Below are positions 32,595-50,646 of a stretch of 64,000 bases of DNA, one piece after another. The notes under the pieces are model-generated. The model did not search any database. It had not been told where the DNA came from and worked only from the letters and a program-made list of their open reading frames with translations. Every line of letters begins with the position of its first letter. Position 1 is the first letter of the stretch. The stretch is from positions 1,263,501 to 1,327,500 of the forward strand of contig NZ_LZEU01000001.1 of NCBI RefSeq assembly GCF_014490745.1. The letters run 5' to 3'. The DNA comes from Pseudomonas alcaligenes. Its GTDB lineage: Bacteria > Pseudomonadota > Gammaproteobacteria > Pseudomonadales > Pseudomonadaceae. The translations under genes and the position numbers were made by a program.

Positions 32595-32734
32595 AAATCT
32601 ATTTAGGATCTCTTGATCGTCGGCCATGCGGCGTTGAAATGGGGCTCGGACTGCTCATTTACACTGCGTAAACTCCGCGTCCTCGCCCCATTTCGCCTTG
32701 CCTGGCTCTAGCTCAAAAGATCCTAAACAGATTT
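32595..32734. repeat. Intergenic palindromic repeat element, copy 1
   Basis: A 140-bp element with 22-bp terminal inverted repeats (32595-32616 against 32713-32734, 20 of 22 pairs), an inner perfect 10-bp stem (GAAATGGGGC at 32636-32645 with GCCCCATTTC at 32685-32694) and a small central palindrome TTTACACTGCGTAAA. It can fold as one long hairpin. A second copy is at 49429-49556: the ~89-bp cores align without gaps at about four in five positions, while the paired arms differ but still pair. It resembles the non-autonomous intergenic repeats common in Pseudomonas; no transposase is inside. Confidence 0.8.
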
Positions 32735-32788
32735 TTCGCGTGTCCGCTTCTGGAGCTAAATCACCGTAATCAATAGTGCTGGGCGGGG

Positions 32789-32804
32789 CGAGACGACCGG
32801 TCAT
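32789..32804. promoter_or_regulatory. Operator of the NemR-like regulator, site 1
   Basis: CGAGACGACCGGTCAT, centred on the palindrome GACCGGTC, ends immediately before the first ATG of the TetR gene. The same 16 bp recur at 33430-33445 before the old yellow enzyme gene, which marks a shared repressor site. Confidence 0.75.
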
Positions 32805-32816
32805 ATGCTCGCCGCC

Positions 32817-33410
32817 ATGAACAGCACTATCCGACTCGACAAGCGTGACCTGATCCTGGCCAAGGGCTCGGACGTGATGACCCGTCGCGGTTACCACGGC
32901 ACCGGCGTGCAGGAGATCGTCCAGGCCGCGGGCATCCCCAAGGGCAGCTTCTACCACTACTTCGCCAGCAAGGAAGACTTCGCCCTGCAGGCCCTGGAGT
33001 TCGTCTACCAGCCGCGCCTGGCGCGCTACGCCGAGGCCCTGAGCAACACGGCGCTGAGCCCGCGGGCACGCATCCTGGCCTACTACCGCGACCTGCAGGC
33101 GCACTTCGCTCGCCAGGACAAGGGCCAGTACCACTGCTTCATCGGCAGCCTGAGCTTCGAAATGGCCGAGCTGCTGCCCGCCATCGGCCAGCAGGTGGAA
33201 AGCATCCAGCAGGCTTCGGTGGACATTCTCCAGCAATGCCTGGAGCAGGCCCGCCAGGTCGGCGAGCTGAGTGCCGACGAAGACTGCGGCAACCTGGCGA
33301 TATTCATCAGCAATGCCTGGCAAGGCGTGCTGGCGCGGCTCAAGGTCGGTGGCAACACGCAGACCCTGGATGCCTTCATCACCCGTCTGGAGCTGCTCCT
33401 GCAGCCCTGA
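32817..33410 (+). CDS. TetR-family regulator, NemR-like
   Basis: A 197-residue TetR repressor with helix-turn-helix in VMTRRGYHGTGVQEIVQAAG and PKGSFYHYFASKEDFA. A cysteine at 107 (GQYHCFIG) falls where NemR has its redox-sensing Cys106, so response to electrophiles or hypochlorous acid is plausible. The ATG at 32817 is used; the ATG at 32805 directly abuts the operator, and neither has a clear ribosome site, so the start is uncertain. The old yellow enzyme gene follows after 56 nt and carries the same operator, matching the nemR-nemA arrangement of enterobacteria. Confidence 0.85.
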   Translation: MNSTIRLDKRDLILAKGSDVMTRRGYHGTGVQEIVQAAGIPKGSFYHYFASKEDFALQALEFVYQPRLARYAEALSNTALSPRARILAYYRDLQAHFARQDKGQYHCFIGSLSFEMAELLPAIGQQVESIQQASVDILQQCLEQARQVGELSADEDCGNLAIFISNAWQGVLARLKVGGNTQTLDAFITRLELLLQP

Positions 33411-33429
33411 TTTTTTAACCGCCTTTCAA

Positions 33430-33445
33430 CGAGACGACCGGTCAT
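33430..33445. promoter_or_regulatory. Operator of the NemR-like regulator, site 2
   Basis: Exact 16-bp copy of the site at 32789-32804 (CGAGACGACCGGTCAT), placed 21 nt before the start codon of the old yellow enzyme, ahead of its AAGGAG ribosome site. It implies a separate regulated promoter, or a site for blocking read-through, at the second gene. Confidence 0.75.
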
Positions 33446-33466
33446 CTGCCGGTTCAAGGAGACTTC

Positions 33467-34576
33467 ATGAGCGCCCCGACACAAGCCCTGTTCCAACCCT
33501 TCCGCCTGGGCAACCTGGAACTGCCGACCCGCGTGGTGATGGCGCCGATGACCCGTTCCTTCTCCCCGGGCGGCGTGCCCAATGCGCTGGTCGTCGAGTA
33601 CTACCGTCGTCGCGCCGCTGCCGGCGTCGGCCTGATCGTCACCGAAGGCACCACCGTCGGCCACAAGGCCGCCAACGGCTACCCGAATGTGCCGCGCTTC
33701 TACGGTGAAGACGCCCTGGCCGGCTGGAAGCAGGTGGTCGATGCGGTGCACGCCGAAGGCGGCAAGATCGTTCCGCAGCTGTGGCACGTGGGCAACGTGC
33801 GCAAGCTGGGCACCGAGCCGGACGCCAGCGTGCCGGGCTACGGCCCGAGCGAAAAAGTGAAAGATGGCAACGTGGTCGTCCACGGCATGACCAAGCAGGA
33901 CATTGACGAAGTCATCGCCGCCTTCGCCCAGGCTGCCCGCGACGCCAAGGCTATCGGCATGGACGGCGTGGAGATCCACGGCGCCCACGGCTACCTGGTC
34001 GACCAGTTCTTCTGGGCCGGCAGCAACCAGCGCACCGACGAATACGGCGGCGACCTGGCCCAGCGTTCGCGCTTCGCCATCGAGCTGATCCAGGCCGTAC
34101 GCGCCGCCGTCGGCCCGGACTTCCCGATCATCTTCCGCTTCTCGCAGTGGAAGCAGCAGGACTACACCGCACGTCTGGTGCAGACCGCCGAGGAACTGGG
34201 CGCCTTCCTCAAGCCGCTGGCCGATGCTGGCGTGGACATCTTCCACTGCTCGACCCGTCGTTTCTGGGAGCCGGAATTCGAAGGCAGCGACCTCAACCTG
34301 GCCGGCTGGACCCGCCAGCTCACTGGCAAGCCGACCATCACCGTGGGCAGCGTCGGCCTGGACGGCGAGTTCCTGCAGTTCATGGTCAACACCGACAAGG
34401 TCGCCGAGCCGGCCAGCCTGGAAAATCTGCTGGAGCGCCTGAACAAGCAGGAGTTCGACCTGGTAGCTGTGGGCCGCGCCCTGCTGGTCGACCCGGACTG
34501 GGCGGTGAAGGTGCGCGACAGCCGCGAGCAGGACATCCTGCCGTTCAGCCGCGAAGCCCTCAAGCAGCTGGTCTGA
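33467..34576 (+). CDS. Old yellow enzyme family alkene reductase
   Basis: A 369-residue FMN (beta/alpha)8 barrel: FQPFRLGNLELPTRVVMAPM, the substrate-binding His/Asn-type pair in VEIHGAHGYLVDQFF, SNQRTDEYGGDL and GRALLVDPDWAVKV near the end. Such enzymes reduce activated C=C bonds (N-ethylmaleimide, enones) and some nitro compounds with NADPH. CAAGGAG precedes the ATG. It forms a detoxification unit with the NemR-like regulator. Two terminators follow. The nearest named relatives are NemA and XenB-type reductases, and which one cannot be decided by eye. Confidence 0.92.
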   Translation: MSAPTQALFQPFRLGNLELPTRVVMAPMTRSFSPGGVPNALVVEYYRRRAAAGVGLIVTEGTTVGHKAANGYPNVPRFYGEDALAGWKQVVDAVHAEGGKIVPQLWHVGNVRKLGTEPDASVPGYGPSEKVKDGNVVVHGMTKQDIDEVIAAFAQAARDAKAIGMDGVEIHGAHGYLVDQFFWAGSNQRTDEYGGDLAQRSRFAIELIQAVRAAVGPDFPIIFRFSQWKQQDYTARLVQTAEELGAFLKPLADAGVDIFHCSTRRFWEPEFEGSDLNLAGWTRQLTGKPTITVGSVGLDGEFLQFMVNTDKVAEPASLENLLERLNKQEFDLVAVGRALLVDPDWAVKVRDSREQDILPFSREALKQLV

Positions 34577-34593
34577 TTCCCCGCTTTACCCCT

Positions 34594-34620
34594 GTGCGCC
34601 GAGTGAGTCGGCGCACTTTT
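34594..34620 (+). terminator. First terminator after the old yellow enzyme gene
   Basis: GTGCGCCGA-GTGAG-TCGGCGCAC, a perfect 9-bp stem followed by TTTT. Confidence 0.7.
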
Positions 34621-34623
34621 CGA

Positions 34624-34647
34624 GCCCCGGCACACCGGGGCTTTTTT
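34624..34647 (+). terminator. Second terminator after the old yellow enzyme gene
   Basis: GCCCCGG-CACA-CCGGGGC followed by TTTTTT. The T-run overlaps the TAA stop of the convergent glycosyltransferase gene. Confidence 0.85.
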
Positions 34648-35803
34648 ATGCCGGCGGCAAACCCGGGTGGCGGGCCTGCAGCAGCTGCGCCTCGAAGCGC
34701 TCGATGATCTCTTCCCAGCCCTGGCGGCCGGCATGTTGGCGGGCGTTCAGGCGCACCCGGCGGCGGGTTTCGCTGTCTTCCAGCAGCCACTGCGCCGCTT
34801 CGATAAAAGCGCGTTCGTCCCCCGGAATGGCCAGTGCACCATTGTGCCCGTGGCGGATGTGCTGGGCAGCGGCGGCCTGGTCGTAGGCCACCACCGCCAG
34901 GCCCGAGGCCAGGGCTTCGAGCACCACGTTGCCGAAGGTCTCCGACAGGCTGGGAAAGAGAAACAGGTCGCCGCTGGCATAGTGTTCGGCCAGTGCCTCG
35001 CCGCGCTGCACGCCGCAGAACAGGGCGTCCGGCAGCTGCGCCTGGAGTTCCGTCCGGCTCGGCCCGTCGCCCACCAGCACCAGCTTCAGGCGCTGTTGCG
35101 GGTAATGCTGCTGCAGTTGCTGGAAGCTCTTCACCAGCAGCGCCAGGTTCTTCTCCGGAGCCAGGCGGCCGACATGCAGCACGGCCAGTTCGTCGTCACC
35201 CAGGCCCCAGTGGCTGCGCAGCGCGGGCGAACGCCGGGTGGGGTGGAACAGCTGGCCGTCGACCCCGCGCGCGAGCAGTTCCAGGCGCTCGAAGCCGCGG
35301 CGCTGCAGCTCGAGCTGCTGGCTGGCGCTGGGCACCAGGGTCATGCGCGTGCGGTTGTGGAACCAGCGCAGGTAGCCGGTGAGCAGGCGGCTGAGCAGGC
35401 CGAAGCCGTAGTGATCGCTGTACTGCTGGAAGTTGGTGTGAAAGCCGCTGACCACCGGAATCCCCAGGCGCCGCGCAGCGCGCAGGGCGGACAGGCCGAG
35501 TGGGCCTTCGGTGGCGATGTACAGCACGTCCGGGCGGTTGCGCTGCCAGCGGCGCAGCAGCTTGTGCAGCGCCGACTGACCCCATTGCAAACCCGCGTAA
35601 CCGGGCAGCGGCCAGCCGCGGGTGAGCAGCAGCTGGTCGTCGCTGGCCTGCAGGTCGCCGGGCTGGCGTGGGCGGATCAGTTGCAGGCGATGGCCGCGGC
35701 TGAGCAGGCCCTGATACAGACGGCCGAGGGTGTTGGCGACGCCATTGACCTCGGGGGGGAAGGTTTCGCTGACCAGGGCGATATGCAGGCTTGTGACATT
35801 CAT
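34646..35803 (-). CDS. Glycosyltransferase family 1/4-like
   Basis: A 385-residue GT-B fold glycosyltransferase. The N-terminal acceptor domain starts LHIALVSETFPPEVNGVANT; the C-terminal donor domain has HVGRLAPEKNLALLV, LVGDGPSRTEL and FLFPSLSETFGNVVLEALAS, the E-x7-E sugar-nucleotide motif. Members of this subgroup (MgtA/PimB-like) add sugars to diacylglycerol or lipid acceptors; P. aeruginosa and others use one for glycolipid remodelling at low phosphate, but that is only a suggestion here. The start is ambiguous between ATG 35803 and ATG 35827, because a perfect palindrome covers both and neither has a clear ribosome site. Confidence 0.87.
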   Translation of the reverse strand: MNVTSLHIALVSETFPPEVNGVANTLGRLYQGLLSRGHRLQLIRPRQPGDLQASDDQLLLTRGWPLPGYAGLQWGQSALHKLLRRWQRNRPDVLYIATEGPLGLSALRAARRLGIPVVSGFHTNFQQYSDHYGFGLLSRLLTGYLRWFHNRTRMTLVPSASQQLELQRRGFERLELLARGVDGQLFHPTRRSPALRSHWGLGDDELAVLHVGRLAPEKNLALLVKSFQQLQQHYPQQRLKLVLVGDGPSRTELQAQLPDALFCGVQRGEALAEHYASGDLFLFPSLSETFGNVVLEALASGLAVVAYDQAAAAQHIRHGHNGALAIPGDERAFIEAAQWLLEDSETRRRVRLNARQHAGRQGWEEIIERFEAQLLQARHPGLPPA

Positions 35804-35828
35804 GGCGCCAGTCTGGGCTGGCGCCATG
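35801..35828. repeat. Perfect 11-bp hairpin over the glycosyltransferase start
   Basis: CATGGCGCCAG-TCTGGG-CTGGCGCCATG. Both possible start codons of the minus-strand gene lie in the two arms, so in the mRNA the start would be base paired. It could limit translation. Confidence 0.7.
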
Positions 35829-35848
35829 TAGCCACGGTGACGGCGAGG

Positions 35849-36598
35849 TTACCGGGTTGTGACGGCGCCAGCCTCGCGCTCGCGCACCCAGAACAGAGTA
35901 GCGCCGGCCACCGCAGCCGGCATCACCAGTATGTTGACGAAGGGGATCAGCAGCGCCACATATACCGCGCCGCCGAAGCCCAGGCTCTGCCAGCGTTTCT
36001 CGCGCAGCCAGGCGAGCATATCGTCCCAGCTGACCTTGTTGTTGTCGCAGGGGTAGTCGATGTATTGCACAGCCATCATCCACACGCCGAACAGGATCCA
36101 CAACGGCGCGGCGATCAAGTTGAGCACTGGGACAAAGGTGAGAATCAGCAGGGGAATGGCGCGTGGCAGGAAGTAGGCCAGCTTGCGCAGCTCGCGGCCG
36201 AGGGTGCGCGGCACCATGGCGGTCAGTTCGGCCCAGCTGAAGGGCGGGAAGTCGTCGCGCCCGCGCAGCACCACTTCGACCTTCTCGGCGAGGAAGCCGT
36301 TGAACGGCGCGGCGATGATGTTGGCCAGCAGGGTGAAGCTGAAGAACATCACCAGCAGTACCAGCAGCACGAACAGCGGCCAGATGATGTAGGCGAGGAA
36401 GCTCAGCCAGTCCGGCAGGCTGGGCATGAAGGCGTCGACCCAGCCGCCGAACTGCTGGACGGCGAGACCGATCAGGCCGATGAACAGCAGGGTATTGATC
36501 GCCAGCGGCAGCAGCACGAACAGGCGCAGGCCGGGGCTCATAACCAGTTTCAGGCCTTCGCCCAGGTAGTGCGGGCCGGAGAGGGCGGGAGCGGGCAT
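35849..36598 (-). CDS. cysZ: CysZ/EI24-type sulfate uptake membrane protein
   Basis: A 249-residue inner-membrane protein of the EI24 family with several long hydrophobic segments (~25-48, ~68-95, ~145-175, ~205-235) and the family signatures [28 protein letters not shown] and [12 protein letters not shown]. CysZ takes sulfate into the cytosol for cysteine synthesis. It lies 45 nt upstream of the glycosyltransferase start and downstream of the cyclase gene, all on the minus strand, so read-through is possible. Length equals E. coli CysZ (~253). Confidence 0.87.
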
Positions 36599-36631
36599 GG
36601 GGGTCTTCCTTGCGACGAGTTCGCGCCGACC

Positions 36632-38605
36632 TTACCGGCTTTGCGAAGTCGAAGAAAGTGGCTCCGGCTGGTACAGGCAGGCGCGGTTGCGCTGCTGCTT
36701 GGCCTGGTACATGGCGCGGTCGGCGGCCTTGTTGAGAGTCTCCGCGGTGTCGGCATGCTCGGGGAACAGGGCGATGCCGATACTCGGGGTTACAAAGTCG
36801 ATGCACAGCTCGCCGAGCTGGGCCGGGGTCTGCAGCACGGCGAGCAGGCGCTCGGCCAGTTTCAGCGCTACCTCACGGCCGGTGTCCGGCAGGAGCAGGG
36901 TGAACTCGTCGCCGCCCAGGCGGTAGACCCGGTCGGGTTGGCGCATGGCACCGCGCAGGCGCTCGGCGATGTTCTGCAGCAGGGCGTCGCCGACATCGTG
37001 GCCGTACTGGTCGTTGACCTGCTTGAAGCGATCCAGATCCAGGTACAGCAGGGCCAGCGGGCTATCCAGGTGGCGGCTCTGTTCGAGCAGCAGGCTCAGG
37101 CGTTCGGCGAAGGCCTTGCGGTTGCCCAGGCCGGTCAGCGAGTCCCGGTAGGCCATGTCGAGCAGCTGGTTCTGGTAGACCATCTGGTCGGTGATGTCGC
37201 GCAGGATGCCGCGGTAGCCGATGAACTGGCCGCTGCTGTCGTGGATCAGCGATAGCCGGGCCTCGTAGTGGCCCCAGCTGCCGTCGCGGCGTTCCAGGGG
37301 CGCGGCGAAACGGTCGTTGCCGTCGAGGTCGCCGCTGCGCGCCTTGACCAGCCGCTCGCGGGCGCGGGGGATGTCGTCCTGCAACAGCAGTTTCTCGAAG
37401 GACTGCTGCAGCAACTCCGTTTCGCTGTAGCCGAGCATCTGGCACAGGGCGCGGTTGGCGGCGAGGATGACCCCGATCGCATCCAGTTCGAAGTAGCCAT
37501 CCTGGATCGCATCGAGGATCTGGCGGTCGCGTGCTTCGCTCTGTTCCAGGCGTTCGAGCATGCGGTTGGCCTCGCTGGCCAGTTGGCCGAGTTCGTCCTG
37601 GCCGTTGTCGCTGAGGCGCTGGTGCGCGGAATCCGGGCCGATGGCATTCATCTCGCGGTTCATCCGCAATACCCGGTGCAGGATCAGGCGCTCCAGGCCC
37701 AGGTAGATCAGCAACCAGGCGAGCAGGCCGATGCCGCTGCTCAACAGCAGGAAAATGGCGATGGTTTGGCGCCCATCCTGGTAGAGGCGGCGCTCCTTGG
37801 TCAGCTCCAGCAGCAGCTCGGGTTCACCGAGGTTGTTGCTGAACAGCAGGCGCCGCTGTTGTTGCTTGTCGTCGGGCAGCAGCCGGGGGCTGACCTGGAG
37901 CGGATTAAGGTTGTGCTCGCTGGCGGGGAGCTGCTGCCAGCCGGCCTGCGTACCATCCGGCAGGAGAAAGCGCAGCTCGGCATTGATCCGTGATTGCACC
38001 TGTTCGACGCGTTCCCTGTCGATGAAGTAGCCGGCAATCAGGGTGCCGCGCGGTTTCAGGCTGCCTTCGCTGTTGCTGATCGGGCTCATGGCCAGCACCA
38101 CGGGCACGCCTTGCACCACGACGAATTGCCCGGTGAGCCCGCCGCTACCGTGCTGGCGCAAGCGTTTGCTCAGGCTGAGGATATTGGCGCGTAGTGTCTG
38201 ATGGTCGTCCGGGCGTTGGTTGCCGAGCACCCATAGCTCCGGCAGATCCGGCGGCTGCCATTGTTCGGCGTAGACCCGCTCCTGCACGTCGAGGAAGACC
38301 ATGAAGTCCAGATCCATCAGGCGCATGGCCTCGGTGTCCATGTTGCTGCGCATGAAGTCCGGGTTGTAGTTCTGCAGGAAGGCGTAGCTGTCATCCCACT
38401 GGCCATAGCCGAGCACCAGGTCGCGGGTACGTTTGAGATTGTCTTCCAGCAGGTTGCGCAGGCGTTTGACTTCGGTGTCCAGCAGGGCGCTGTCCTGGCG
38501 ATCGAAGCGGTTGAGCAGGAGTTGTTGCGAGAGCACAAGGGCGCTGCTCAAGACCAGCACAAGCAAAGGGCCAAACAACCAGAACAGACGTTTGCGCAGG
38601 GTCAT
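36632..38605 (-). CDS. CHASE4-HAMP-PAS-GGDEF diguanylate cyclase
   Basis: A 657-residue inner-membrane cyclase. Membrane segment ~8-28, CHASE4 periplasmic sensor ~45-265 (LGYGQWDDSYAFLQNYNPDF), second membrane segment ~285-305, HAMP, PAS ~365-480, and a C-terminal GGDEF domain with GGDEF at 564-568 and the product-inhibition site RQPD five residues before it. It should make c-di-GMP. The ATG at 38605 is preferred to a TTG 9 nt upstream. It resembles the diguanylate cyclase found near trxB2 and ahpB in P. aeruginosa (from memory). Expressed divergently from trxB. Confidence 0.9.
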   Translation of the reverse strand: MTLRKRLFWLFGPLLVLVLSSALVLSQQLLLNRFDRQDSALLDTEVKRLRNLLEDNLKRTRDLVLGYGQWDDSYAFLQNYNPDFMRSNMDTEAMRLMDLDFMVFLDVQERVYAEQWQPPDLPELWVLGNQRPDDHQTLRANILSLSKRLRQHGSGGLTGQFVVVQGVPVVLAMSPISNSEGSLKPRGTLIAGYFIDRERVEQVQSRINAELRFLLPDGTQAGWQQLPASEHNLNPLQVSPRLLPDDKQQQRRLLFSNNLGEPELLLELTKERRLYQDGRQTIAIFLLLSSGIGLLAWLLIYLGLERLILHRVLRMNREMNAIGPDSAHQRLSDNGQDELGQLASEANRMLERLEQSEARDRQILDAIQDGYFELDAIGVILAANRALCQMLGYSETELLQQSFEKLLLQDDIPRARERLVKARSGDLDGNDRFAAPLERRDGSWGHYEARLSLIHDSSGQFIGYRGILRDITDQMVYQNQLLDMAYRDSLTGLGNRKAFAERLSLLLEQSRHLDSPLALLYLDLDRFKQVNDQYGHDVGDALLQNIAERLRGAMRQPDRVYRLGGDEFTLLLPDTGREVALKLAERLLAVLQTPAQLGELCIDFVTPSIGIALFPEHADTAETLNKAADRAMYQAKQQRNRACLYQPEPLSSTSQSR

Positions 38606-38820
38606 ACCGGTCAACTGCCTGCGTGGCGGGTGTTCGTTCAGTATAGCAAGGGGGGTAGCGGCTCCCGCCGGGATAGCGGTGGTCTATCGGCGGCATAAGC
38701 AATCGCCATTTTCGCAATGGCGGGGGCCTGGGTAGGCTGGCGGCCATTCACTTCCCGGGGCCGTTCGCGTCTATCCAGCCCTCCCCAGGGCTGGGCACGC
38801 TGCCCTTCTATCTGGAGTAG

Positions 38821-39771
<951 letters not shown>

Positions 39772-39787
39772 TTAGTCTTGCGGGCAC

Positions 39788-39817
39788 AAAAAAAGCGGGC
39801 CAGTGGCCCGCTTTTTT
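39788..39817. terminator. Bidirectional terminator between trxB and pirin
   Basis: A7-GCGGGCC-AGT-GGCCCGC-T6: a strong GC stem flanked by A- and T-runs, so it can end both trxB (+) and pirin (-) transcripts. Confidence 0.88.
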
Positions 39818-39833
39818 GTCGTTGCGCCCGGGA

Positions 39834-40532
39834 TCAGGCGACTTCCACCAGGATCACTTCACTGTCTTCGACGGCGGTGACCCGTACCACTTCCTCGCCG
39901 GCGATAGCTACGCCATCACGCTCGGCGGCGCGCACGCCGTTGACCTCGATCAGGCCTTTGGCTGGCACCAGGTAGCCTTTGCGCAGGCGGCCCAGCGGGT
40001 ACTCGGCGCTTTGCCCGGCCTGCAGCGTGGCAGCTACCAGACGGGCGTCGGCACGGATGCGCAGGGCGTCGCCGTCATCCTCGCTGCCGCTGGCCAGTAC
40101 CACGAACTGCCCGGCCCGCTCGCCTTTGGGGAACGGCTTGGCGCCCCAGGACGGCGCCTTGCCGAACTGATCGGGGATGACCCAGATCTGGAAGATCTTG
40201 GTGGTCACGTCCTCCAGGTTGTACTCGGAGTGGGCGATACCGGTGCCGGCGCTCATCACCTGCACGTCACCGGCCTCGGTGCGACCCTGGTTGCCCAGGT
40301 TGTCGCGGTGAGTGATGGCGCCTTCACGGACATAGGTGATGATTTCCATGTCGTGGTGCGGGTGCGGCGGGAAGCCGCTGTGCGGGGCGATCTCGTCGTC
40401 GTTCCACACGCGCAGCTTGCCCCAGTTGGCCCGCTGGGCGTTGTGGTACTCGGCGAAGGAGAAGTGGTGGCGAGCGTTCAGCCAACCGTGCTGGGCATGG
40501 CCCAGGCTGTTGAAAGGACGTACGTCGATCAT
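39834..40532 (-). CDS. Pirin-family bicupin
   Basis: A 232-residue pirin/YhhW-like bicupin. The metal-site cluster PHSGFPPHPHHDMEII and the later HSEYN supply the His/Glu ligands of the N-terminal cupin; RGREG-type residues appear as VREGAITHRDN. YhhW has quercetinase activity in vitro; the natural substrate is unknown and a redox-sensing role is possible. The ATG at 40532 follows an AT-rich leader with repeated elements (40594-40653). It is downstream of the symporter kinase gene on the same strand, but the 141-nt AT-rich gap suggests its own promoter. Confidence 0.9.
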   Translation of the reverse strand: MIDVRPFNSLGHAQHGWLNARHHFSFAEYHNAQRANWGKLRVWNDDEIAPHSGFPPHPHHDMEIITYVREGAITHRDNLGNQGRTEAGDVQVMSAGTGIAHSEYNLEDVTTKIFQIWVIPDQFGKAPSWGAKPFPKGERAGQFVVLASGSEDDGDALRIRADARLVAATLQAGQSAEYPLGRLRKGYLVPAKGLIEVNGVRAAERDGVAIAGEEVVRVTAVEDSEVILVEVA

Positions 40533-40593
40533 GACGGTGCTCCATCTGCTGCAACGTGGAATTACGCTGCAGTGGCGTTGGAGTGAATGATCT

Positions 40594-40653
40594 ATCGATT
40601 TTGTATTGATAAAAAGCGCAAAAACTCCGTCATTAAAATCGATTTAATTGATA
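40594..40653. promoter_or_regulatory. AT-rich repeated operator upstream of pirin
   Basis: Two related near-palindromes in the same orientation: ATCGATTTTGTATTGATA at 40594-40611 and ATCGATTTAATTGATA at 40638-40653 (ATCGAT, spacer, ATTGAT). They stand out in a GC-rich genome and lie 62 and 106 nt before the pirin ATG, a layout typical for LysR-type or other dimeric regulators. No regulator gene is adjacent. Confidence 0.5.
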
Positions 40654-40673
40654 CTTTTCGGCGCGACTCAGGC

Positions 40674-43600: not shown

Positions 43601-44144
43601 TGACATCCAGGCTGCGGGTGCCGAACAGCACGGTGAACAGGGCCAGCACCAGCGACACGATCAGCGCGGTGTCCTGGGCGCGGGTCGGGCTCGGCGTGGC
43701 GCCGATCAGCAGGTTGACGCCGAGCACGATGCCCTTCAGCTGCAGGGCGATGTAGGGCAGCACGCCGACCAGGCAGATCAGCGCCACCACCACCGCCAGG
43801 GCCTGCGACTTGCCGTAGCGGGCGGCGATGAAGTCGGCGATCGAGGTGATGTTCTCCTGCTTGCTGATCATCACCATCTTCTGCACCACCCAGGGGGCGA
43901 ACAGCAGCAGCAGGATCGGCCCCAGGTAGATCGGCAGGAACGACCACAGCTCGCCGGCGGACTGGCCGACCGCGCCGAAGAAGGTCCAGCTGGTGCAGTA
44001 CACCGCCAGCGACAGGCTGTAGACCCAGGCGCGCATGCGCGGCGGCAGGGGCGTGCGGCGGCGGTCGCCATAGAAGGCGATACTGAACAGGGTGGCCATG
44101 TAGGTCATGGCGACCAGGGCGATCAATCCGCCGGACAGCGACAT
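40674..44144 (-). CDS. mxtR: Symporter-fused hybrid histidine kinase (MxtR/CrbS type)
   Basis: A 1156-residue protein. Residues ~1-500 are a sodium:solute-symporter (SLC5) domain with about 13 membrane segments (VYCTSWTFFGAVGQSAGELW; SIADFIAARYGKS). A PAS domain follows (~650-760), then HisKA with His804 (AAVSHDLMQPLN), ATPase domain ~905-1015 (GLGLGLAI) and a terminal receiver with Asp1087 (LALVDYHLD). CbrA has the same front but no receiver; the receiver and length fit CrbS/MxtR, which with ErdR/CrbR controls acetyl-CoA synthetase and acetate use. GGAG precedes the ATG at 44144 by 5 nt. The cognate regulator is not in this window. Confidence 0.85.
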   Translation of the reverse strand: MSLSGGLIALVAMTYMATLFSIAFYGDRRRTPLPPRMRAWVYSLSLAVYCTSWTFFGAVGQSAGELWSFLPIYLGPILLLLFAPWVVQKMVMISKQENITSIADFIAARYGKSQALAVVVALICLVGVLPYIALQLKGIVLGVNLLIGATPSPTRAQDTALIVSLVLALFTVLFGTRSLDVTEHHRGMVLAIAFESLVKLLAFLAVGAFVTWGLFDGFDDLLGQARQAPALQDFWQQTLSWPAMLVQTGLAMTAIVCLPRQFHVAVVENIESKDLRLARWVFPTYLLLAALFVIPIALAGQLLLPAGVAPDSFVISLPLAEAHPALALLAFIGGASAATGMVIVEAVALSTMVSNDMLLPVLLRRQSAERPFEAFRHWMLSARRVSIVVILLLAYVCYRLLGTNASLATIGQLSFAAISQLAPAMLGALLWKQANRRGVFAGLAAGCALWFYTLVLPLVAGGLRWSLDSFPLLPELLYYPVGFDIDPLTRGVVLSLTGNFLLFAWVSWFTRSRVSEHWQAGRFIGQELAAKPSSRNLLAVQVADLMQLAARFVGEDRTRQSFVRFAYQQDRPFNPSQNADSEWIAHTERLLAGVLGASSTRAVVRAAIEGREMQVEDVVRIVDEASEVLQFNRALLQGAIENITQGISVVDQSLRLVAWNRRYQELFEYPEGLIGVGRPIADIIRYNAERGLCGPGDVEAHVSKRLYWMRQGKAHTSERLFPNGRVIELIGNPMPGGGFVMSFTDITAFRRAEHDLKEANEGLEQRVDERTRELSQLNQELGEAKGVAESANQSKSRFLAAVSHDLMQPLNAARLFSAALSHQQEALPREAQELVRHLDSSLRSAEDLITDLLDISRLENGRIAPDISAFALGSLFDALGAEFKVLAQEQGVDFRLRGSRLRIESDPRLLRRVLQNFLTNAFRYAKGHVLLGVRREGGNLRLEVWDRGLGIPEDKRKVIFEEFKRLDSHQTRAEKGLGLGLAIADGLCRVLGHRLDVRSWPGKGSVFSVSVPLARQAAVAAPRPAAETNGHALSGAQVLCIDNEDSILTGMHSLLSRWGCQVWTARNRLECEHLLDEDVRPQLALVDYHLDEGDTGTELMAWLRTRLGEPLPGVVISADGRPELVAAVHAAGLDYLAKPVKPAVLRALISRHLPLA

Positions 44145-44396
44145 GCGAACTCCACGGGCAGGGCGCAGGCAACCGACGGGCGCAGTGGCCGGCCGGTTCG
44201 GCAAAGGGGCCGGAGGCTTCCGGCTTTTATCCAGTCTCGCACGTCATGGCCATGGCGTCAGGACGACCAAGGTCGCACTGGCCTTGAGCGGCCTGCCGCG
44301 GCCTGTTAGCGTGCGCGATCCTGGCCTGTCGGCCAGCATTTGTCCCGCGATCTTTTTGCCGTCAGCCTGTCTGATGTTGTTTTACGGAGCCTGACG

Positions 44397-44966
44397 ATGT
44401 TCAACCCGCATCCCATTACCTTGCAGCAGGGCGCCTTGCGCCTAGAGCCGCTGCGCGAAGCCGATCTGCCGGGCTTGCTGGCGCTGGCCGAGGCCAACCG
44501 CGAGGCCCTGCAGTTCATCAGTGGCGCCTCGCGCCCGGATTGGTACCGCGATGCACTGGCTGGGCAGCGTGCTCAGCGCGCCGTGGTCTTCACCATTCGC
44601 CTGGCCGGCCAGCTGGTTGGCACCACGCGCTTCTGCGCCTTCGACGCCACCCTGCCGGCTGCCGAGCTGGGCTACACCTGGCTGGACAGCCGCGAGCACG
44701 GCCGCGGCCTCAACGCCATGATCAAGTACCTGTTGCTGCGCTACGCCTTCGAGGAGTGGCAACTGGTGCGGGTGCAGCTGCAGACGGCGGCGAGCAATGG
44801 CCGCGCCCAGGCGGCTCTGGACAAGCTCGGTGCCAGCCGCGAAGGCGTGCTGCGCAATCACTGCCGGCTGGCCGACGGCCGCCTCGACGACAGCCTGCTG
44901 TACAGCATCACCGACCGCGAGTGGCCGCAGGTCAAACGTCAGCTGGAGGCGCGCTTCGGCGCCTGA
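44397..44966 (+). CDS. GNAT-family N-acetyltransferase
   Basis: A 189-residue RimJ/RimL-like acetyltransferase: ITLQQGALRLEPLREADLPG at the start, AELGYTWLDSREHGRGLNAM carrying the acetyl-CoA loop, and ALDKLGASREGVLRNHCRLA near the end. Such enzymes acetylate amino groups of proteins or small molecules with acetyl-CoA; no target can be named. GGAG precedes the ATG at 44397. It is divergent from mxtR across a 252-nt gap and is followed after 2 nt by an AraC gene, so the two are co-transcribed. Confidence 0.88.
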   Translation: MFNPHPITLQQGALRLEPLREADLPGLLALAEANREALQFISGASRPDWYRDALAGQRAQRAVVFTIRLAGQLVGTTRFCAFDATLPAAELGYTWLDSREHGRGLNAMIKYLLLRYAFEEWQLVRVQLQTAASNGRAQAALDKLGASREGVLRNHCRLADGRLDDSLLYSITDREWPQVKRQLEARFGA

Positions 44967-44968
44967 AC

Positions 44969-45796
44969 ATGGCCGCGACGCGCGAGCAGACCCGTTTCTG
45001 GCAGGCCGAGGGCGTGACCGGCGTCGAGCTGTTGCACGCCCACTATGTGCAGCAGCGCTTCGCCCCGCATGTGCACGAGGGCTTCGTATTCACCGTGATC
45101 GAGGCCGGTGCCCAGCGCTTTCGCCATCGTGGCAGCGACCACCTGGCGCCGGTGGGCAGCATGGTGCTGATCAACCCGGATGAGTTGCACACCGGTTCCA
45201 AGGCCCATGACGAAGGCTGGCGCTACCGCGCCTTCTACCCGGACAACCGCCAGGTGCTGGGCGTGCTCGACGAACTGGGCCTGGCCGCTGGCGGCATGCC
45301 GGCATTCGCCGCCAGCGTGCTGCAGGATCCCGAACTGCATGCCTGTTTCGCCGGCCTGCACCGTCTGCTGGATGGCGGCGCCAGTGTGTTGCAGCAGCAG
45401 ACCGCCTGGCGCGAGGCGATCCTGCTGCTGTTCCAGCGCCATGCGCGCATTGCCACGCCGGCAGCGGCGGGGCGCGAGCCGCAGGCGGTGGCCTTGGCCA
45501 AGGAGCTGCTGGGCAGCTGCCTGGCCGAGCCGCCGTCGCTGGAGGAGCTGGCGACGGCGGTCAATCTGTCGCCGTTCCACTTCGCCCGGGTGTTCCGCCG
45601 TGCCACCGGCCTGCCGCCGCACGCCTGGCTCAAGCAGCGCCGCCTGGAGCAGGCGCGCGCGCTGCTCAAGTCCGGCTGCGCGCCGTTGGCGGTGGCCATG
45701 CAGCTGGGCTTTGCCGACCAGAGCCACCTGAACCGCCAGTTCAAGCAGGCCTATGGCGTTGCCCCGGGCGAGTACCGCAAGGCCTGCCTCGGCTGA
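44969..45796 (+). CDS. AraC-family regulator of the AzlCD exporter (inferred)
   Basis: A 275-residue AraC protein with an N-terminal cupin sensor (HYVQQRFAPHVHEGFVFTVI; INPDELHTGSK) and a C-terminal double helix-turn-helix (LEELATAVNLSPFHFARVF; PLAVAMQLGFADQSHLNRQF). The ATG at 44969 lies 2 nt after the GNAT stop. The AzlC/AzlD exporter genes start 73 nt downstream on the same strand; AraC genes of this type are often found beside AzlCD, so amino-acid-responsive control is likely but inferred from position. Confidence 0.88.
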   Translation: MAATREQTRFWQAEGVTGVELLHAHYVQQRFAPHVHEGFVFTVIEAGAQRFRHRGSDHLAPVGSMVLINPDELHTGSKAHDEGWRYRAFYPDNRQVLGVLDELGLAAGGMPAFAASVLQDPELHACFAGLHRLLDGGASVLQQQTAWREAILLLFQRHARIATPAAAGREPQAVALAKELLGSCLAEPPSLEELATAVNLSPFHFARVFRRATGLPPHAWLKQRRLEQARALLKSGCAPLAVAMQLGFADQSHLNRQFKQAYGVAPGEYRKACLG

Positions 45797-45869
45797 GCAC
45801 ACGCTGCGCAAGATTGTTCAATACCGCGACTGCTGCGGCGGGCTAGCCTTCTTCGCTCAAGGAGGTTCC

Positions 45870-46580
45870 ATGTCCCGTCACCACGAATTCTTCCAGGCCA
45901 TGCGCGATATGCTGCCGATGCTGCTCGGCGCCATGCCGTTCGGCATCATCTATGGCAGCCTGGCCGGCGCCGCCGGGCTCACGCCCTGGCAGACCCTCGG
46001 CATGTCGGTGCTGGTGTTCGCCGGCTCGGCGCAGTTCATCGCCATCAGCCTGCTCGGCGGCGGCGCCACCCTGGCCGTGCTGTGGCTGACCACCCTGGTG
46101 GTCAACCTGCGCCACGCCCTGTACAGCGCCAGCCTGCAGCCCTTCGTGCGCCACCTGCCCAAGCGCTGGCGGGTGCCGCTGGCCTTCTGGCTGACCGACG
46201 AGGCCTTCGCCGTGGTGCAGCAGCGCTATGCCGAGAGCGATACCTCGCCGCACAAGCACTGGTATTTCCTCGGAGCGGCGCTGGCGATGTACATCAACTG
46301 GCTGGCCTGCACTCTGATCGGCCTGGTATTCGGCCAGGCGGTGCCGAACATCGCTGCCTGGGGCCTGGACTTCGCCATGCTCGCCACCTTCATCGGCATC
46401 GTCGTGCCGGTGCTGCGCAACCGCCCGCAGGTGGCGGCGGCGCTGGTGGCTGGCGGCGTGGCCCTGGCCTGCCACGCGCTGCCCTACAAACTCGGCCTGA
46501 TGGCCGCCGCCTGCGCCGGCATTGTCGTCGGCGTGGTGCTGGAGCGTCGTTACCGTCTGCTGCAGGATGAGGTGTTCTGA
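45870..46580 (+). CDS. azlC: AzlC-family amino-acid exporter, large subunit
   Basis: A 236-residue inner-membrane protein of the AzlC/YgaZ family with ~7 hydrophobic segments and the signature MLPMLLGAMPFGIIYGSLAG, VFAGSAQFIAISLL and NLRHALYSAS. With AzlD it forms an exporter of branched-chain or related amino acids. AAGGAGG stands before the ATG at 45870. Its TGA overlaps the ATG of azlD, so the subunits are made together. Confidence 0.9.
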   Translation: MSRHHEFFQAMRDMLPMLLGAMPFGIIYGSLAGAAGLTPWQTLGMSVLVFAGSAQFIAISLLGGGATLAVLWLTTLVVNLRHALYSASLQPFVRHLPKRWRVPLAFWLTDEAFAVVQQRYAESDTSPHKHWYFLGAALAMYINWLACTLIGLVFGQAVPNIAAWGLDFAMLATFIGIVVPVLRNRPQVAAALVAGGVALACHALPYKLGLMAAACAGIVVGVVLERRYRLLQDEVF

Positions 46581-46909
46581 TGGACAACTGGCTACTGATC
46601 TTCGGCATGCTGGCGATCACCTTCGCCACCCGCTACAGCCTGTTCGCCTTCCCCGACCTGCGCTTCCCGCCGCTGGTGCGCCAGGGCCTGCATTACGTGC
46701 CCACCGCCGTGCTCACCGCCATCGTGGTGCCCGGCATGCTGCTGCCGGATGGCAAGACCTTGGCCCTGACGCTGGACAACGCCTACCTGCTGGCCGGCCT
46801 GGTGACCATCGCCATCGCCGCCCTGAGCCGCAATCTGCTGGCGACCATCGGCGGCGGTTTGTTGGTGTTCTTCCTGCTGCGCTGGGCGCTGGGGCAGATG
46901 CCGCTCTAG
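46580..46909 (+). CDS. azlD: AzlD-family exporter small subunit
   Basis: A 109-residue protein with four hydrophobic segments and the family start LLIFGMLAITFATRYSLF and HYVPTAVLTAIVVPGML. It is the small partner of AzlC (YgaH-like). Its ATG shares a base with the azlC stop (TGATG). A 107-nt gap with no evident terminator separates it from the next gene. Confidence 0.9.
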   Translation: MDNWLLIFGMLAITFATRYSLFAFPDLRFPPLVRQGLHYVPTAVLTAIVVPGMLLPDGKTLALTLDNAYLLAGLVTIAIAALSRNLLATIGGGLLVFFLLRWALGQMPL

Positions 46910-47016
46910 TCCTTTGGCAGGCACTGCCGAAAGCCGCACGCGGGTGTGGCTTTGTCAGGGGCAGATGCTGTCCAATGCAGGACGGTGTTTGCCTCTCTGA
47001 CACAGGTACAAGGACG

Positions 47017-48891
47017 ATGACCCAACACTCGCAATTCGCCCTGCTCGGCACTCGGCGTTTCCTGCCGTTCTTCGTGACCCAGCTGCTCGGCGCCTTCAAC
47101 GACAACGTGTTCAAGCAGGGCCTGATCTTCGTCGTGCTGTTCGGCATGGCGTTCTCCGACAAGCAGGGCAGCCTGCTGGTGAACTTCTGCCACCTGCTGT
47201 TCATCCTGCCGTTCTTCCTGTTCTCCGCCCTGGGCGGGCAGTTCGGCGAGAAGTTCGCCAAGGACGCGCTGATCCGCATGATCAAGCTGGCCGAGATCGG
47301 CATCATGCTGGTCGGCGCCCTGGGCTTCTTCTACAACAACCTCTACCTGCTGTTGCTGGCGCTGTTCGGCATGGGTACCCACTCGGCGCTGTTCGGCCCG
47401 GTGAAGTACTCGATCCTGCCGGCGACCCTGCGTGAAGAGGAGCTGGTGGGCGGCAACGCCCTGGTGGAGATGGGCACCTTCCTGGCCATCCTGGCTGGCA
47501 CCATCAGTGCCGGGCTGATCATGTCCGACAGCCATTCCGCCGGCCTGGTGTCGACCGCCATCGTGCTGGTGGCCGGCCTCGGCTACGCCGCCAGCCGGCA
47601 GATCCCGCGGGCAGCGGCGGCCATGCCGGAGCTGCCGCTGGACTGGAACATCTTCCGCCAGACCTGGGCTACCGTGCGCCTGGGCCTCGGCCAGCGTCCG
47701 GCGGTGTCGCGCTCGCTGCTGGGCAACTCCTGGTTCTGGTTCCTTGGCTCGATCTACCTGGCGCAGATCCCGGCCTACGCCAAGGAGCTGCTGCACGGCG
47801 ACAAGAGCGTGATCACCCTGATCCTCACCGTGTTCTCGGTGGGTATAGCCCTAGGTTCGGTGCTGTGCGAGAAGCTCTCCGGACGCAAGGTGGAGATCGG
47901 CCTGGTGCCGTTCGGCTCGATCGGCATGACCCTGTTCGGCGTGCTGCTGTGGTGGCACTCCAGCGGCTTCCCGGCAGCCGAGGCGGCTCATGACTGGCTG
48001 GGCCTGCTGGGCATTGGTCAGGCCTGGTGGATTCTCGCCGACATCTTCGGCATCGGCGTGTTCGGCGGCTTCTACATCGTGCCGCTGTATGCGCTGATCC
48101 AGTCGCGCACGGCGGAGACCGAGCGAGCCCGGGTGATCGCCGCCAACAACATCCTCAACGCGCTGTTCATGGTGGTCTCGGCGCTGGTTGCCATGCTCCT
48201 GCTGAGCGTGGCCGGGCTGAGCATCCCCGAGCTGTTCCTGGTGGTGTCGCTGATGAACCTGGCGGTCAACACCTACATCTTCAAGATCGTTCCCGAGTTC
48301 ACCATGCGCTTCCTCATCTGGATGCTCAGCCACTCGATGTACCGGGTGCGCCACGAGGGCCTGGAGGCGATCCCCGACGAGGGCGCGGCGGTACTGGTGT
48401 GTAACCACGTGTCCTTCGTCGATGCGTTGCTGATCGGCGGGGCAGTGCGCCGCCCGGTGCGTTTCGTCATGTACTACAAGATCTACCAGCTGCCGGTGCT
48501 CAACTTCATCTTCCGTACCGCCGGCACCGTGCCGATCGCCGGACGCAGCGAGGACGAGCAGATCTACGAGCAGGCTTTCGCGCGCATCGCCGAATATCTG
48601 GCGGCAGGCGAGGTGGTGTGCATCTTCCCCGAAGGCAAGCTGACCACCAGCGGCGAGATCGACGAGTTCAAGGCCGGGGTGGAGCGCATCCTCGCGGCCA
48701 ACCCGGTGCCGGTGATTCCCATGGCGCTGCAGGGCTTGTGGGGCAGCTTCTTCAGCCGCGACCCGAGCAAGGGGCTGTTCCGCCGTTTCTGGTCGCGCGT
48801 CACCCTGGTGGCGGGCCAGCCGCTACCGGCGGACACTGGCCGACTGGTGCTGCAGGAGCAGGTCAGCCAGCTGCGTGGTGCTGTTCGTTGA
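47017..48891 (+). CDS. MFS transporter fused to a PlsC-type acyltransferase
   Basis: A 624-residue fusion. Residues ~10-400 are a major facilitator with ~12 membrane segments (FVTQLLGAFNDNVFKQGLIF at the start, as in lysophospholipid flippase LplT). Residues ~425-624 are a PlsC acyltransferase with NHVSFVDALL (His-x4-Asp) and FPEGKLTTSGEI. In enterobacteria LplT flips lysophospholipid inward and Aas reacylates it; this protein joins flippase and acyltransferase but lacks the acyl-ACP synthetase part of Aas. A role in lysophospholipid repair is therefore inferred. The ATG at 47017 follows ACAAGGACG; an open frame continues upstream but is antisense-free shadow of azlCD. Confidence 0.9.
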   Translation: MTQHSQFALLGTRRFLPFFVTQLLGAFNDNVFKQGLIFVVLFGMAFSDKQGSLLVNFCHLLFILPFFLFSALGGQFGEKFAKDALIRMIKLAEIGIMLVGALGFFYNNLYLLLLALFGMGTHSALFGPVKYSILPATLREEELVGGNALVEMGTFLAILAGTISAGLIMSDSHSAGLVSTAIVLVAGLGYAASRQIPRAAAAMPELPLDWNIFRQTWATVRLGLGQRPAVSRSLLGNSWFWFLGSIYLAQIPAYAKELLHGDKSVITLILTVFSVGIALGSVLCEKLSGRKVEIGLVPFGSIGMTLFGVLLWWHSSGFPAAEAAHDWLGLLGIGQAWWILADIFGIGVFGGFYIVPLYALIQSRTAETERARVIAANNILNALFMVVSALVAMLLLSVAGLSIPELFLVVSLMNLAVNTYIFKIVPEFTMRFLIWMLSHSMYRVRHEGLEAIPDEGAAVLVCNHVSFVDALLIGGAVRRPVRFVMYYKIYQLPVLNFIFRTAGTVPIAGRSEDEQIYEQAFARIAEYLAAGEVVCIFPEGKLTTSGEIDEFKAGVERILAANPVPVIPMALQGLWGSFFSRDPSKGLFRRFWSRVTLVAGQPLPADTGRLVLQEQVSQLRGAVR

Positions 48892-48904
48892 TCATGCCGG
48901 CATG

Positions 48905-48933
48905 AAAAAGCCCGCCAATCGGCGGGCTTTTTT
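48905..48933. terminator. Bidirectional terminator between the MFS-acyltransferase gene and sugE
   Basis: AAAAAGCCCGCC-AATC-GGCGGGCTTTTTT: a 7-bp GC stem extended by A/T pairs with T-runs on both strands. It serves both convergent genes. Confidence 0.88.
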
Positions 48934-48942
48934 GTGCCTGAC

Positions 48943-49257
48943 TCAATGGCTGAGCTTGAGGCCGAGTAGCCCGGCGACGATCAGGCCGACGCTGAGCAGG
49001 CGCATGAGCGCCATGGACTCGCCGAACAGGATGATCCCGGCGATCACCGTGCCGATGGCGCCGACGCCGGTCCAGATCGCATAGGCGGTGCCCAGCGGCA
49101 GTTCCTTCATGGCTAGGCCGAGCAGGGCCAGGCTGAGGATCATGGCGCCCACGGTGAGCAGGGTAGGGATGGGGCGAGTGAAACCGTCGGTGTATTTCAG
49201 GCCGACGGCCCAGCCGACTTCGAACAGGCCGGCGAGAAACAGGATGATCCAGGACAT
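48943..49257 (-). CDS. sugE: Guanidinium exporter SugE (Gdx), SMR family
   Basis: A 104-residue four-helix small multidrug resistance protein. It has the essential Glu in [20 protein letters not shown] and the SugE-type signatures [20 protein letters not shown]. The SugE/Gdx branch exports guanidinium in exchange for protons, distinct from EmrE drug pumps. The ATG at 49257 is preceded by GCGGAG. A guanidine-II riboswitch lies in the leader (49262-49334), which supports the guanidinium role independently of the protein sequence. Confidence 0.93.
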
Positions 49258-49261
49258 AAGG

Positions 49262-49334
49262 TGCTCCGCGTACTGCTAAGGGATAGCGGGCCGTCCCGGA
49301 TGAATACTCGAAAGGAGTCGCAGGGTCGTCCCTG
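49262..49334 (-). promoter_or_regulatory. Guanidine-II (mini-ykkC) riboswitch in the sugE leader
   Basis: In the minus-strand RNA two hairpins with ACGR loops occur: CAGGG-ACGA-CCCTG (49334-49321) and, 22 nt on, CGGG-ACGG-CCCG (49298-49287). This two-stem ACGR layout defines the mini-ykkC/guanidine-II class. The CCGC that starts in the 3' arm of the second stem can instead pair with GCGG of the GCGGAG Shine-Dalgarno (49269-49266 and on). Ligand-stabilised stem formation would thus free the ribosome site and turn on sugE. Pairings were read by eye. Confidence 0.9.
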
Positions 49335-49428
49335 CTCTGTGCGTTATTTTGCACAAGCCCCTGCACAGGGCAAGCTCAGTGGGATGAGCGGGCCCTGGCA
49401 GGTGTTGCCAAAGGTCTCCGCAGACCCC

Positions 49429-49556
49429 GTCTACGGCCTCCTGACTGTCGGCCAGGCAGCGTTAAAAGCAGCCTCGGAATGCTCATTTACAGCTCGTAAA
49501 CTGCGCTTCCTCGGCCGCTTTTTCCTTGCCTGGCTTTAATTCAGAAGGCCGTAAAC
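49429..49556. repeat. Intergenic palindromic repeat element, copy 2
   Basis: A 128-bp element homologous to 32595-32734. Terminal arms GTCTACGGCCTCCTGA (49429-49444) and TCAGAAGGCCGTAAAC (49541-49556) pair at 14 of 16 positions; the inner stem AAAAGCAGCC (49464-49473) with GGCCGCTTTT (49513-49522) pairs at 9 of 10. The arms differ in sequence from copy 1 but keep pairing. It begins 10 nt beyond the rdgC stop and lies upstream of the riboswitch, so it may end rdgC transcripts. Confidence 0.8.
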
Positions 49557-49566
49557 AGGTTCTGGG

Positions 49567-50487: not shown

Positions 50488-50596
50488 GGGGGCGACACTC
50501 CAATTACGCAAAGCGCGCATTATTCTCTGCCGGGGGCGATTGGCCAACCCATCGCTAAGCCTTTGGAACGCCTGCAAAATTTTTTTAAAAAAGAGC

Positions 50597-50625
50597 TTGC
50601 CAAGGTTCGGGTCGCTCTCTAGAAT
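50597..50625 (+). promoter_or_regulatory. Sigma-70 promoter of the tRNA operon
   Basis: TTGCCA at 50597-50602 and TAGAAT at 50620-50625 with a 17-nt spacer, followed by a GC-rich discriminator (GCGCCCC), 21 nt before the tRNA-Val. The discriminator suggests growth-rate or stringent control. An A/T-run (AAAATTTTTTTAAAAAAG) lies just upstream as a UP-like element. Confidence 0.8.
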
Positions 50626-50646
50626 GCGCCCCACTTCGAGAGTGAA

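Follow-up and report, generated by a model that had tools for sequence, protein, structure and literature searches.

Enterobacterial repetitive intergenic consensus (ERIC) sequences, also named IRU or RU-1, are palindromic repeats that have long been in use for strain typing. Their insertion makes a TA duplication, and De Gregorio is said to have described in 2005 that they lie at stop codons in one orientation. To our knowledge, no mover of ERIC has been described, nor has it been explained what moves these repeats and why they fold. Here we analysed a stretch of 64,000 nucleotides of the Pseudomonas alcaligenes genome (contig NZ_LZEU01000001.1, positions 1,263,501 to 1,327,500; the whole stretch is called the window below) which holds two copies of a palindromic repeat with co-varying stems. 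We consider it quite probable that both copies are non-autonomous mobile palindromes of ~140 bp and belong, as one branch, to an ERIC superfamily whose range extends well past the enterobacteria. This link to ERIC was absent from the first-pass annotation of the window.

The repeat resembles ERIC in several respects. Both are single long imperfect palindromes of similar length (about 127 bp for ERIC, ~140 bp here) with many extragenic copies, and both share the YTTAC-loop-GTAAR apex, the TCA / CTCC internal loop, the GTT ... GCCTT outer motifs and the same better folding strand. The apex of the element, TCA-TTTAC-N5-GTAAA-CTNC, and its neighbouring blocks align with ERIC, and the outer GTT and GCCTT motifs with their CTC/TCG flanks lie at matching spacing. 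Read on the minus strand, the apex becomes GNAG-TTTAC-N5-GTAAA-TGA, which pointed to ERIC through the ERIC primer sequences. In E. coli, the ERICs of cusC and of ybhI adjoin or overlap a stop codon in the same orientation as the element. In contrast, the inner stem of the Pseudomonas element is longer and freely variable. According to a table in a review (PMC2229807), ERIC ends in TA, whereas the GAACC-ended type of the element shows TNA, and passages of a second source (PMC10969869) give Enterobacteriaceae and Vibrionaceae as ERIC hosts, while the element occurs in Pseudomonas and many others. In topic searches on ERIC-like or co-varying repeats in Pseudomonas none of the papers listed appeared to link the two, and those listed for a search with the printed core sequence were unrelated, judged by title.

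Copy A occupies positions 32595-32734 of the window (plus strand; covariance model match G000:C1:1296090-1296238, 161.7 bits), as the first-pass annotation had placed it. Copy B (plus strand; G000:C1:1312918-1313066, 150.5 bits) is better placed by the model at 49423-49562 than at the 49429-49556 given earlier. The two copies are 77% identical across 124 ungapped aligned bases. As 146-nt stretches, both form a single long hairpin whose folding energy is far lower than in 200 shuffles, with z scores of -8.90 (A) and -7.80 (B) for the plus strand and -10.66 and -10.05 for the minus strand. The hypervariable inner stem of copy A is formed by GAAATGGGGC (32636-32645, alignment columns 57-66) and its partner GCCCCATTTC (32685-32694), and that of copy B by AAAAGCAGCC (49464-49473) and GGCCGCTTTT (49513-49522), all on the plus strand. 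The arms differ between the copies and still pair within each, completely in A and at 9 of 10 positions in B, as had been claimed. Between the arms lies the conserved apical hairpin, which a pattern match placed at 32653-32678 in copy A (GCTCATTTAC-N5-GTAAACTCCGC) and at 49481-49506 in copy B (GCTCATTTAC-N5-GTAAACTGCGC), both on the plus strand; the window has two matches to the core pattern, against zero expected from 100 shuffles. An Rfam scan of the window gave no relevant family: two tRNAs were the only matches at gathering score, and the one match at copy A (E 4.6) was below the gathering score of its family.

Both copies lie next to genes whose names we keep from the first-pass annotation. 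The left end of copy A directly follows the TAG stop codon (32592-32594) of a nitroreductase-like open reading frame (31857-32594, plus strand). In copy B the arrangement is reversed, and its right end lies 4 nt from the TGA stop codon (49567-49569) of an rdgC-like open reading frame on the minus strand (49567-50634). The earlier statement, which had both copies beginning within 0-10 nt of a stop codon, is thus right about nearness, but opposite ends of the element adjoin the two stops.

The two copies belong to a genome-wide family. Comparison of the DNA with the whole genome gave 44 matches (best 40 of 102 candidates scored). A covariance model (R1), built from an alignment of 42 copies (A2), found at least 99 matches at E<=0.01 (best 150 of 2749 candidates scored). 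After removal of 4 opposite-strand duplicates and the 3 weakest matches, at least about 92 copies remained, a lower bound since only 150 of the 2749 candidates were scored. The core CATTTAC-N5-GTAAACT was found in 67 distinct exact copies among the loci retrieved, 25 of which A2 omits because of stem inserts or decay. The plus-strand consensus, read by eye from A2, is TNA/GAACCTGTTTACGATCTnCTGnnCGTCGGCCATnCnGCGTTRAAA-nnn-GGCTCGGAnTGCTCATTTACAnnnCGTAAACTCCGCnTCCTCGCC-nnn-TTTYGCCTTGYCTGGCTCTAGnnCnnRAGATCGTAAACAGGTTC/TNA. The hairpin combines a conserved apex and conserved bulges (GCGTT / GCCTTG and CTC / TCG) with stems that vary freely and still pair.

The pairing is maintained well beyond chance. 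In A2, 89.4% of the cells pair, compared with 76.2% in the shuffled control, which ignores the relatedness of the copies, and at most 46.1% in the slid control, which corrects for it. A double-sided change was seen in 33 of 47 pairs, and the covariation score over the 42 copies was 0.385, far above 0.158 shuffled and at most 0.122 slid. Double-change cells numbered 278 against 91 in the shuffled control, and 0 of 500 shuffles reached 278. The differences in the inner helix mostly replace one Watson-Crick pair by another, as in pair 65-108 (GC 24, CG 16, AT 1, other 1).

Copies at the same place in different species were also compared. Between the orthologues L028 and L357 (91% identity) the inner stem has three paired swaps and no unpaired change, while their apical core is identical. 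Over six same-place pairs we counted 27 double swaps from one Watson-Crick pair to another, 9 double changes of other kinds and 24 single changes that turned a Watson-Crick into a non-Watson-Crick pair. The three of them at 91-92% identity gave 6 double swaps against 6 single changes that break a Watson-Crick pair. The other three (77, 73 and 69% identity) are probably not simple orthologues. In two cases, L018/L344 and L015/L377, the stop codon seems to carry a different subtype in each genome, which could reflect replacement or a second insertion. The proposal that structure is under selection is thus supported by the copies of this genome, by distant genomes and by a true orthologous locus, in tests that are not phylogeny-aware.

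The mispairs also point to one strand. On the plus strand, A-C mispairs outnumbered G-T mispairs 109 to 42 in the own copies and 199 to 95 in a distant set, where A-C was the more frequent in 61 rows and the less frequent in 15. By group the counts were 74 vs 37 in Pseudomonadaceae, 116 vs 52 in others and 9 vs 6 in Bacteroidota. Since folding of the plus strand would predict more G-T than A-C, the reverse excess points to the minus strand as the folded form, although strand-biased mutation may be the source of the excess. As RNA, the minus strand was the more stable in 42/42 own copies, 85/92 distant rows (121-169 nt) and 8/8 ERIC-type sequences; the mean difference was about 10 kcal/mol. Relative to the gene that most commonly adjoins a copy, this more stable strand is the antisense one.

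Paired changes could also come from mutation. The element would then be an ordinary miniature inverted-repeat transposable element (MITE) of a DDE insertion sequence, and template switching during replication would copy one arm onto the other and keep the pairing without selection. We regard this as rather unlikely. The many Watson-Crick to Watson-Crick changes with few intermediates would fit arm copying, as would the three paired changes of L028/L357 within one short helix, and TNA or TA flanks with inverted ends fit DDE elements. But arm copying should favour neither strand, and we found A-C about 2:1 over G-T and one strand that nearly always folds better; the outer motifs, moreover, are conserved and not erased. 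MITEs of the IS5 family likewise have short inverted ends and TNA/TA targets, whereas the core and outer motifs of the element are conserved across phyla while its ends differ between groups.

One PF01609 gene is present in the Pseudomonas alcaligenes genome, and this family is absent from three copy-rich relatives (G404, G434 and G314), which makes it unlikely as the sole mover; PF13586 and PF13340 lay outside this search. When places that match the element ends with 0-2 mismatches were checked by eye against the known copies, two of them, 419825 and 3548916, did not belong to a copy. We noticed no lone GAACC-type end at up to 2 mismatches accompanied by a transposase in the own genome, by eye, and 30 loci of G200 showed no autonomous partner in the form of an exact plus end 300-3000 bp before an exact minus end. 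According to passages of a 2007 review (PMC2229807), mobility by a transposase did not yet have experimental support for such repeats.

Copies of the element come and go. In the orthologous spacer of relative G434 copy A is absent, and between the TAG stop and the common flank there are just an A and 6 unaligned bases. Five further relatives have the same two genes adjacent with other spacers of 20-77 unaligned bases, and in one genome (G361) a copy of opposite orientation, L298, lies behind the same nitroreductase-like gene. Further filled and empty pairs at stop codons, with flanks read by eye, were L015/L339, L317/L406 and L398/L078, and L339's own copy gave a pair located in a 5' leader. 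Three of the seven filled/empty displays, the two of L360/L081 and the one of L406's own copy, gave no clean junction. At the convergent gene pair L002/L362 the element lies behind the right-hand gene here and behind the left-hand gene in G404; its left end meets the stop codon in both genomes, and in G404 it has TGA on both sides. At one stop codon in three species, L015 (own genome) and L377 (G404) are different-looking subtypes and L339 (G314) is empty, which suggests repeated insertion at, or replacement within, a single site.

Among the 82 GAACC-type copies with recognisable ends, 67 have TNA on the left flank, and the flanking 3-mers are identical in 30, compared with 12.9 expected (0/5000 shuffles). 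On 42 copies alone the flank-repeat test was weak (8 vs 3.3, p 0.0125); it became clear with the larger set and the end filter. To place the copies relative to genes we pooled the 92 own copies with 97 from relatives, the latter being 108 less 9 opposite-strand duplicates and the partial matches L396 and L400. The gene calls came from a home-made caller, which is a weak point of the stop-adjacency counts below. Of these 189 copies, 3 were called within genes. A co-oriented gene lies on the left side in 136 of 189, with its stop exactly at the element in 76 and within -15..+6 in 123. On the right side there is a minus-strand gene in 89 of 189, with the stop exactly at the element in 16 and within -15..+6 in 26. 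The left and right counts for exact abutment (76 vs 16) differ with p 2e-10, and such a single orientation at stop codons has been reported for ERIC. In the window, stop codons make up 33 of the 253 intergenic TNA sites (13%), yet of the 92 own copies 36 directly adjoin a stop codon; insertions often sit immediately at a TAA or TGA stop. By a cruder test on 19 copies from Bacteroidota metagenome-assembled genomes (MAGs), the stop was on the left arm in 14 and on the right in 3, while the corresponding test in G200, with 6 copies, was uninformative.

A position directly behind stop codons is also what would be expected of a host 3'-end RNA element, such as a hairpin that stabilises mRNA or serves in its processing or termination and is maintained for its effect on gene expression. 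The very stable RNA fold would suit such a role, and Yersinia ERICs affect mRNA decay, as reported second-hand in passages of PMC2229807 and PMC10969869. However, copies appear and disappear at the same gene between close species, and an RNA made from the usual neighbouring gene would contain the less stable strand. Neither window copy has a T-run of its own, as read from the sequence with no terminator scan. We therefore judge a host RNA element unlikely. From the alternatives of the first-pass annotation, a mobile element with structure-guided ends or a structural 3'-end RNA, the mobility part of the first is supported by empty sites, TNA flank repeats and a mostly single orientation at stops, and the purely structural RNA has become the less likely of the two.

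For the range across bacteria we scanned with an exact core of 21 fixed bases, own genome included. It was present in 12 of 38 genomes of a relatives set and in 31 of 274 gammaproteobacterial genomes (27 of 222 sampled genera), and the reversed-pattern control gave zero throughout. Copy number among relatives is uneven, with dozens in some genomes and none in others; G013 has 27 exact-core copies. A scan of species genomes gave at least 119 stretches with the core. The hosts among the matches listed were Pseudomonas, Stutzerimonas, Halomonas, Salinicola, Marinobacter, Marinospirillum, Methylophaga, Nitrosomonadales and Desulfobacterales, and also several Alistipes, Bacteroidaceae and Rikenellaceae, these all as MAGs, where binning errors may contribute. 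If the relation to ERIC is true, ERIC-type elements extend to Pseudomonas, Halomonas, Marinobacter, Alistipes and others. An alignment of 111 distant rows (A3) still includes the opposite-strand duplicates L102, L178 and L204 and some partial rows. Its copies had been found by their apex, which makes apex conservation in A3 a product of the search, whereas the test of the outer motifs did not share this bias. With a profile from the own genome only, the outer motifs exceeded the 95% shuffle level in 16/21 Bacteroidota, 28/29 other-family and 8/8 Nitrosomonadales/Desulfobacterales copies.

Models of the element find ERIC. On 2 kb around E. coli cusC/cusF, R1 ranked ERIC first (11.4 bits, E 0.048), with a match that spanned the entire ERIC palindrome and had the strand expected. 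A second covariance model (R2), built from the 111 rows of A3, placed a full-length ERIC at the top in 6 of 8 enterobacterial ERIC loci, namely at cusC with 17.8 bits and in five of the seven others with 18.5-22.5 bits. Two ERIC-like loci of G482 scored 28.0 bits (E 2e-5) and 15.4 bits. A DNA search with ERIC in 369 gammaproteobacterial genomes matched 1 genome. Among 72,556 plasmid records, 341 matched ERIC, compared with 1 and 3 for two queries of the Pseudomonas element family, a comparison biased by the hosts in the plasmid collection.

Because an AT-rich palindrome scored near ERIC with R2, we built a motif test that pairing alone cannot win. This spaced-motif profile consists of six motif blocks and gap ranges, with weights from the Pseudomonas element family only. 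The window copies score 65.8 and 59.3, and the next place in the window 20.2. The cusC ERIC scores 47.3 bits, whereas 3000 shuffles that keep pairs and composition had a mean of 2.5 and a maximum of 29.8. Of eight ERIC-type sequences compared with 3000 shuffles each, six beat all; L426 was reached by 1 shuffle and the decayed L434 by 9. In all eight it is the same strand that gives the higher score. When overlapping places on either strand were masked in 50 kb of E. coli, the best place other than ERIC reached 19.7, which is 27 bits lower, and with narrower gap ranges (about ±3 around the spacing of the element family itself) ERIC scored 45.2 and the next place 16.1 (29 bits). ERIC was the top place in 10/10 ERIC-type loci scanned.

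Several results weigh against a branch of the ERIC superfamily that moves. R2 ranks ERIC second in L434 (11.0 vs 11.7 bits), matches the apex alone in L436 (9.8 bits, E 1.7) and gives an unrelated AT-rich palindrome 16.4 bits in a 50-kb E. coli control, where ERIC comes first with 17.8. Plain sequence profiles of the element family (nhmmer, hmmsearch) do not detect ERIC, and a reciprocal model (R3) from the eight ERIC-type sequences, which is shallow (effective number 2.05), misses the window copies. Several ERIC test sequences are near-copies of one another and hence not independent, and the motif blocks and gap ranges were picked with knowledge of an ERIC alignment and may be tuned to it in part. 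Target-site duplications are retained in a minority of copies, the pooled counts contain some orthologous copies twice, and by a cruder test the orientation bias was absent in two mixed distant sets (35 vs 34 among 79 copies of mixed types and 12 vs 12 among 27 copies). In our searches no mobilising enzyme was found, with PF01609 missing from the three copy-rich genomes named above.

The failure of the sequence-only profiles and of the reciprocal model is what one would expect if long palindromes had converged on the same apical hairpin. Against such convergence, ERIC and the element share the order, spacing and strand of six motif blocks to a degree that shuffles with preserved structure do not reach, and the folding-strand bias is the same in both. 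Convergence is quite improbable. Overall, we read the element as real, mobile and under structural constraint, and as a new branch of ERIC-type repeats, with arm-copying mutation, a host 3'-end function and convergence as the rival readings.

A GTAG foot is the mark of repetitive extragenic palindromic (REP) sequences. Small palindromic extragenic repeats in Pseudomonas are often REPs or REPINs moved by a RAYT transposase (passages of PMC3116915), but at ~140 bp the element lacks a conserved GTAG foot beside its ends in A2, and PF01797 (Y1, RAYT/IS200) had 0 matches at E<=0.001 both in the Pseudomonas alcaligenes genome and in G013, so that we rejected this origin, and with it the RAYT-like transposase suggested by the first-pass annotation, as highly improbable. 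The R178 repeat of Pseudomonas fluorescens (Silby 2009, PMC2718517) is, according to passages of that paper, also an intergenic Pseudomonas repeat, of 101 bp with an internal 11-bp inverted repeat and low copy numbers (18, 28 and 9). Compared by description only, it may belong to the same family; those passages hold no mention of an ERIC link. Integron attC sites resemble the element in that structure is conserved above sequence and one strand is favoured for folding. They differ by their core sites, and no cassette array was seen here (integrase was outside the search), so the likeness is an analogy only.

For a mobile branch of the ERIC superfamily we propose the following. An enzyme would recognise the fold and the unpaired motifs rather than the stem sequence, and the stems would consequently drift in pairs. 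The recognised form would be the minus strand, antisense to the gene usually abutted, as single-stranded DNA or RNA. The copies show insertion as a discrete unit with a TNA flank repeat, the plus strand running in the sense of the upstream gene. Insertions at TNA targets would survive best where TNA is a stop codon, since the duplication rebuilds the stop. More tentatively, ERIC and the element could be branches of one ancient class of mobile hairpins in Pseudomonadota and Bacteroidota. Members would move via a single-stranded minus strand (DNA or RNA), be read by shape and loops by a non-RAYT enzyme and insert preferentially at stop codons in the sense of transcription. Their stem sequence would be free, so that the stems would evolve like those of structural RNAs. 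We see this wider class as possible rather than probable. A deep, co-varying relative of ERIC that crosses phyla makes the mover and the fold of ERIC testable questions: the conserved loops suggest a recognition site, the strand asymmetry suggests the strand, the target can be read from the empty sites, and the enzyme that moves the element might be identified by its co-occurrence with copies across genomes.

We also observed variant forms of the repeat. A second subtype in the own genome (L043, L052, L053 and L076) has ends like CTAGGTTCTGTACGAAAAG...CTTTTCGTACAGAACCTAG and a possible TA target; by eye, in sequences that were not counted, the CTAG-ended type looks compatible with TA. Extended forms carry extra hairpin-rich modules in one or both stem arms, for example the right-arm insert CTCACCCTTCGGGCCAGCC...GGCTGTTACT, and are common to several species. 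They include L009, L012, L013, L020, L051, L053, L054, L055, L063, L064, L069, L070 and L077 in the own genome and L168, L169, L181, L184, L206, L209, L222 and L238 in other Pseudomonas. In genome G200 the exact core is present 66 times and the end AACAGGYTGTTGAAAAA 142 times when up to 1 mismatch is allowed. Many of these places are close to contig ends, which gives the impression of a recent amplification. One contig of a Pseudomonas MAG (L218) holds four model matches inside 5 kb. In the window, two tRNA genes (50647-50719 and 50737-50810) lie beside the rdgC-like gene.

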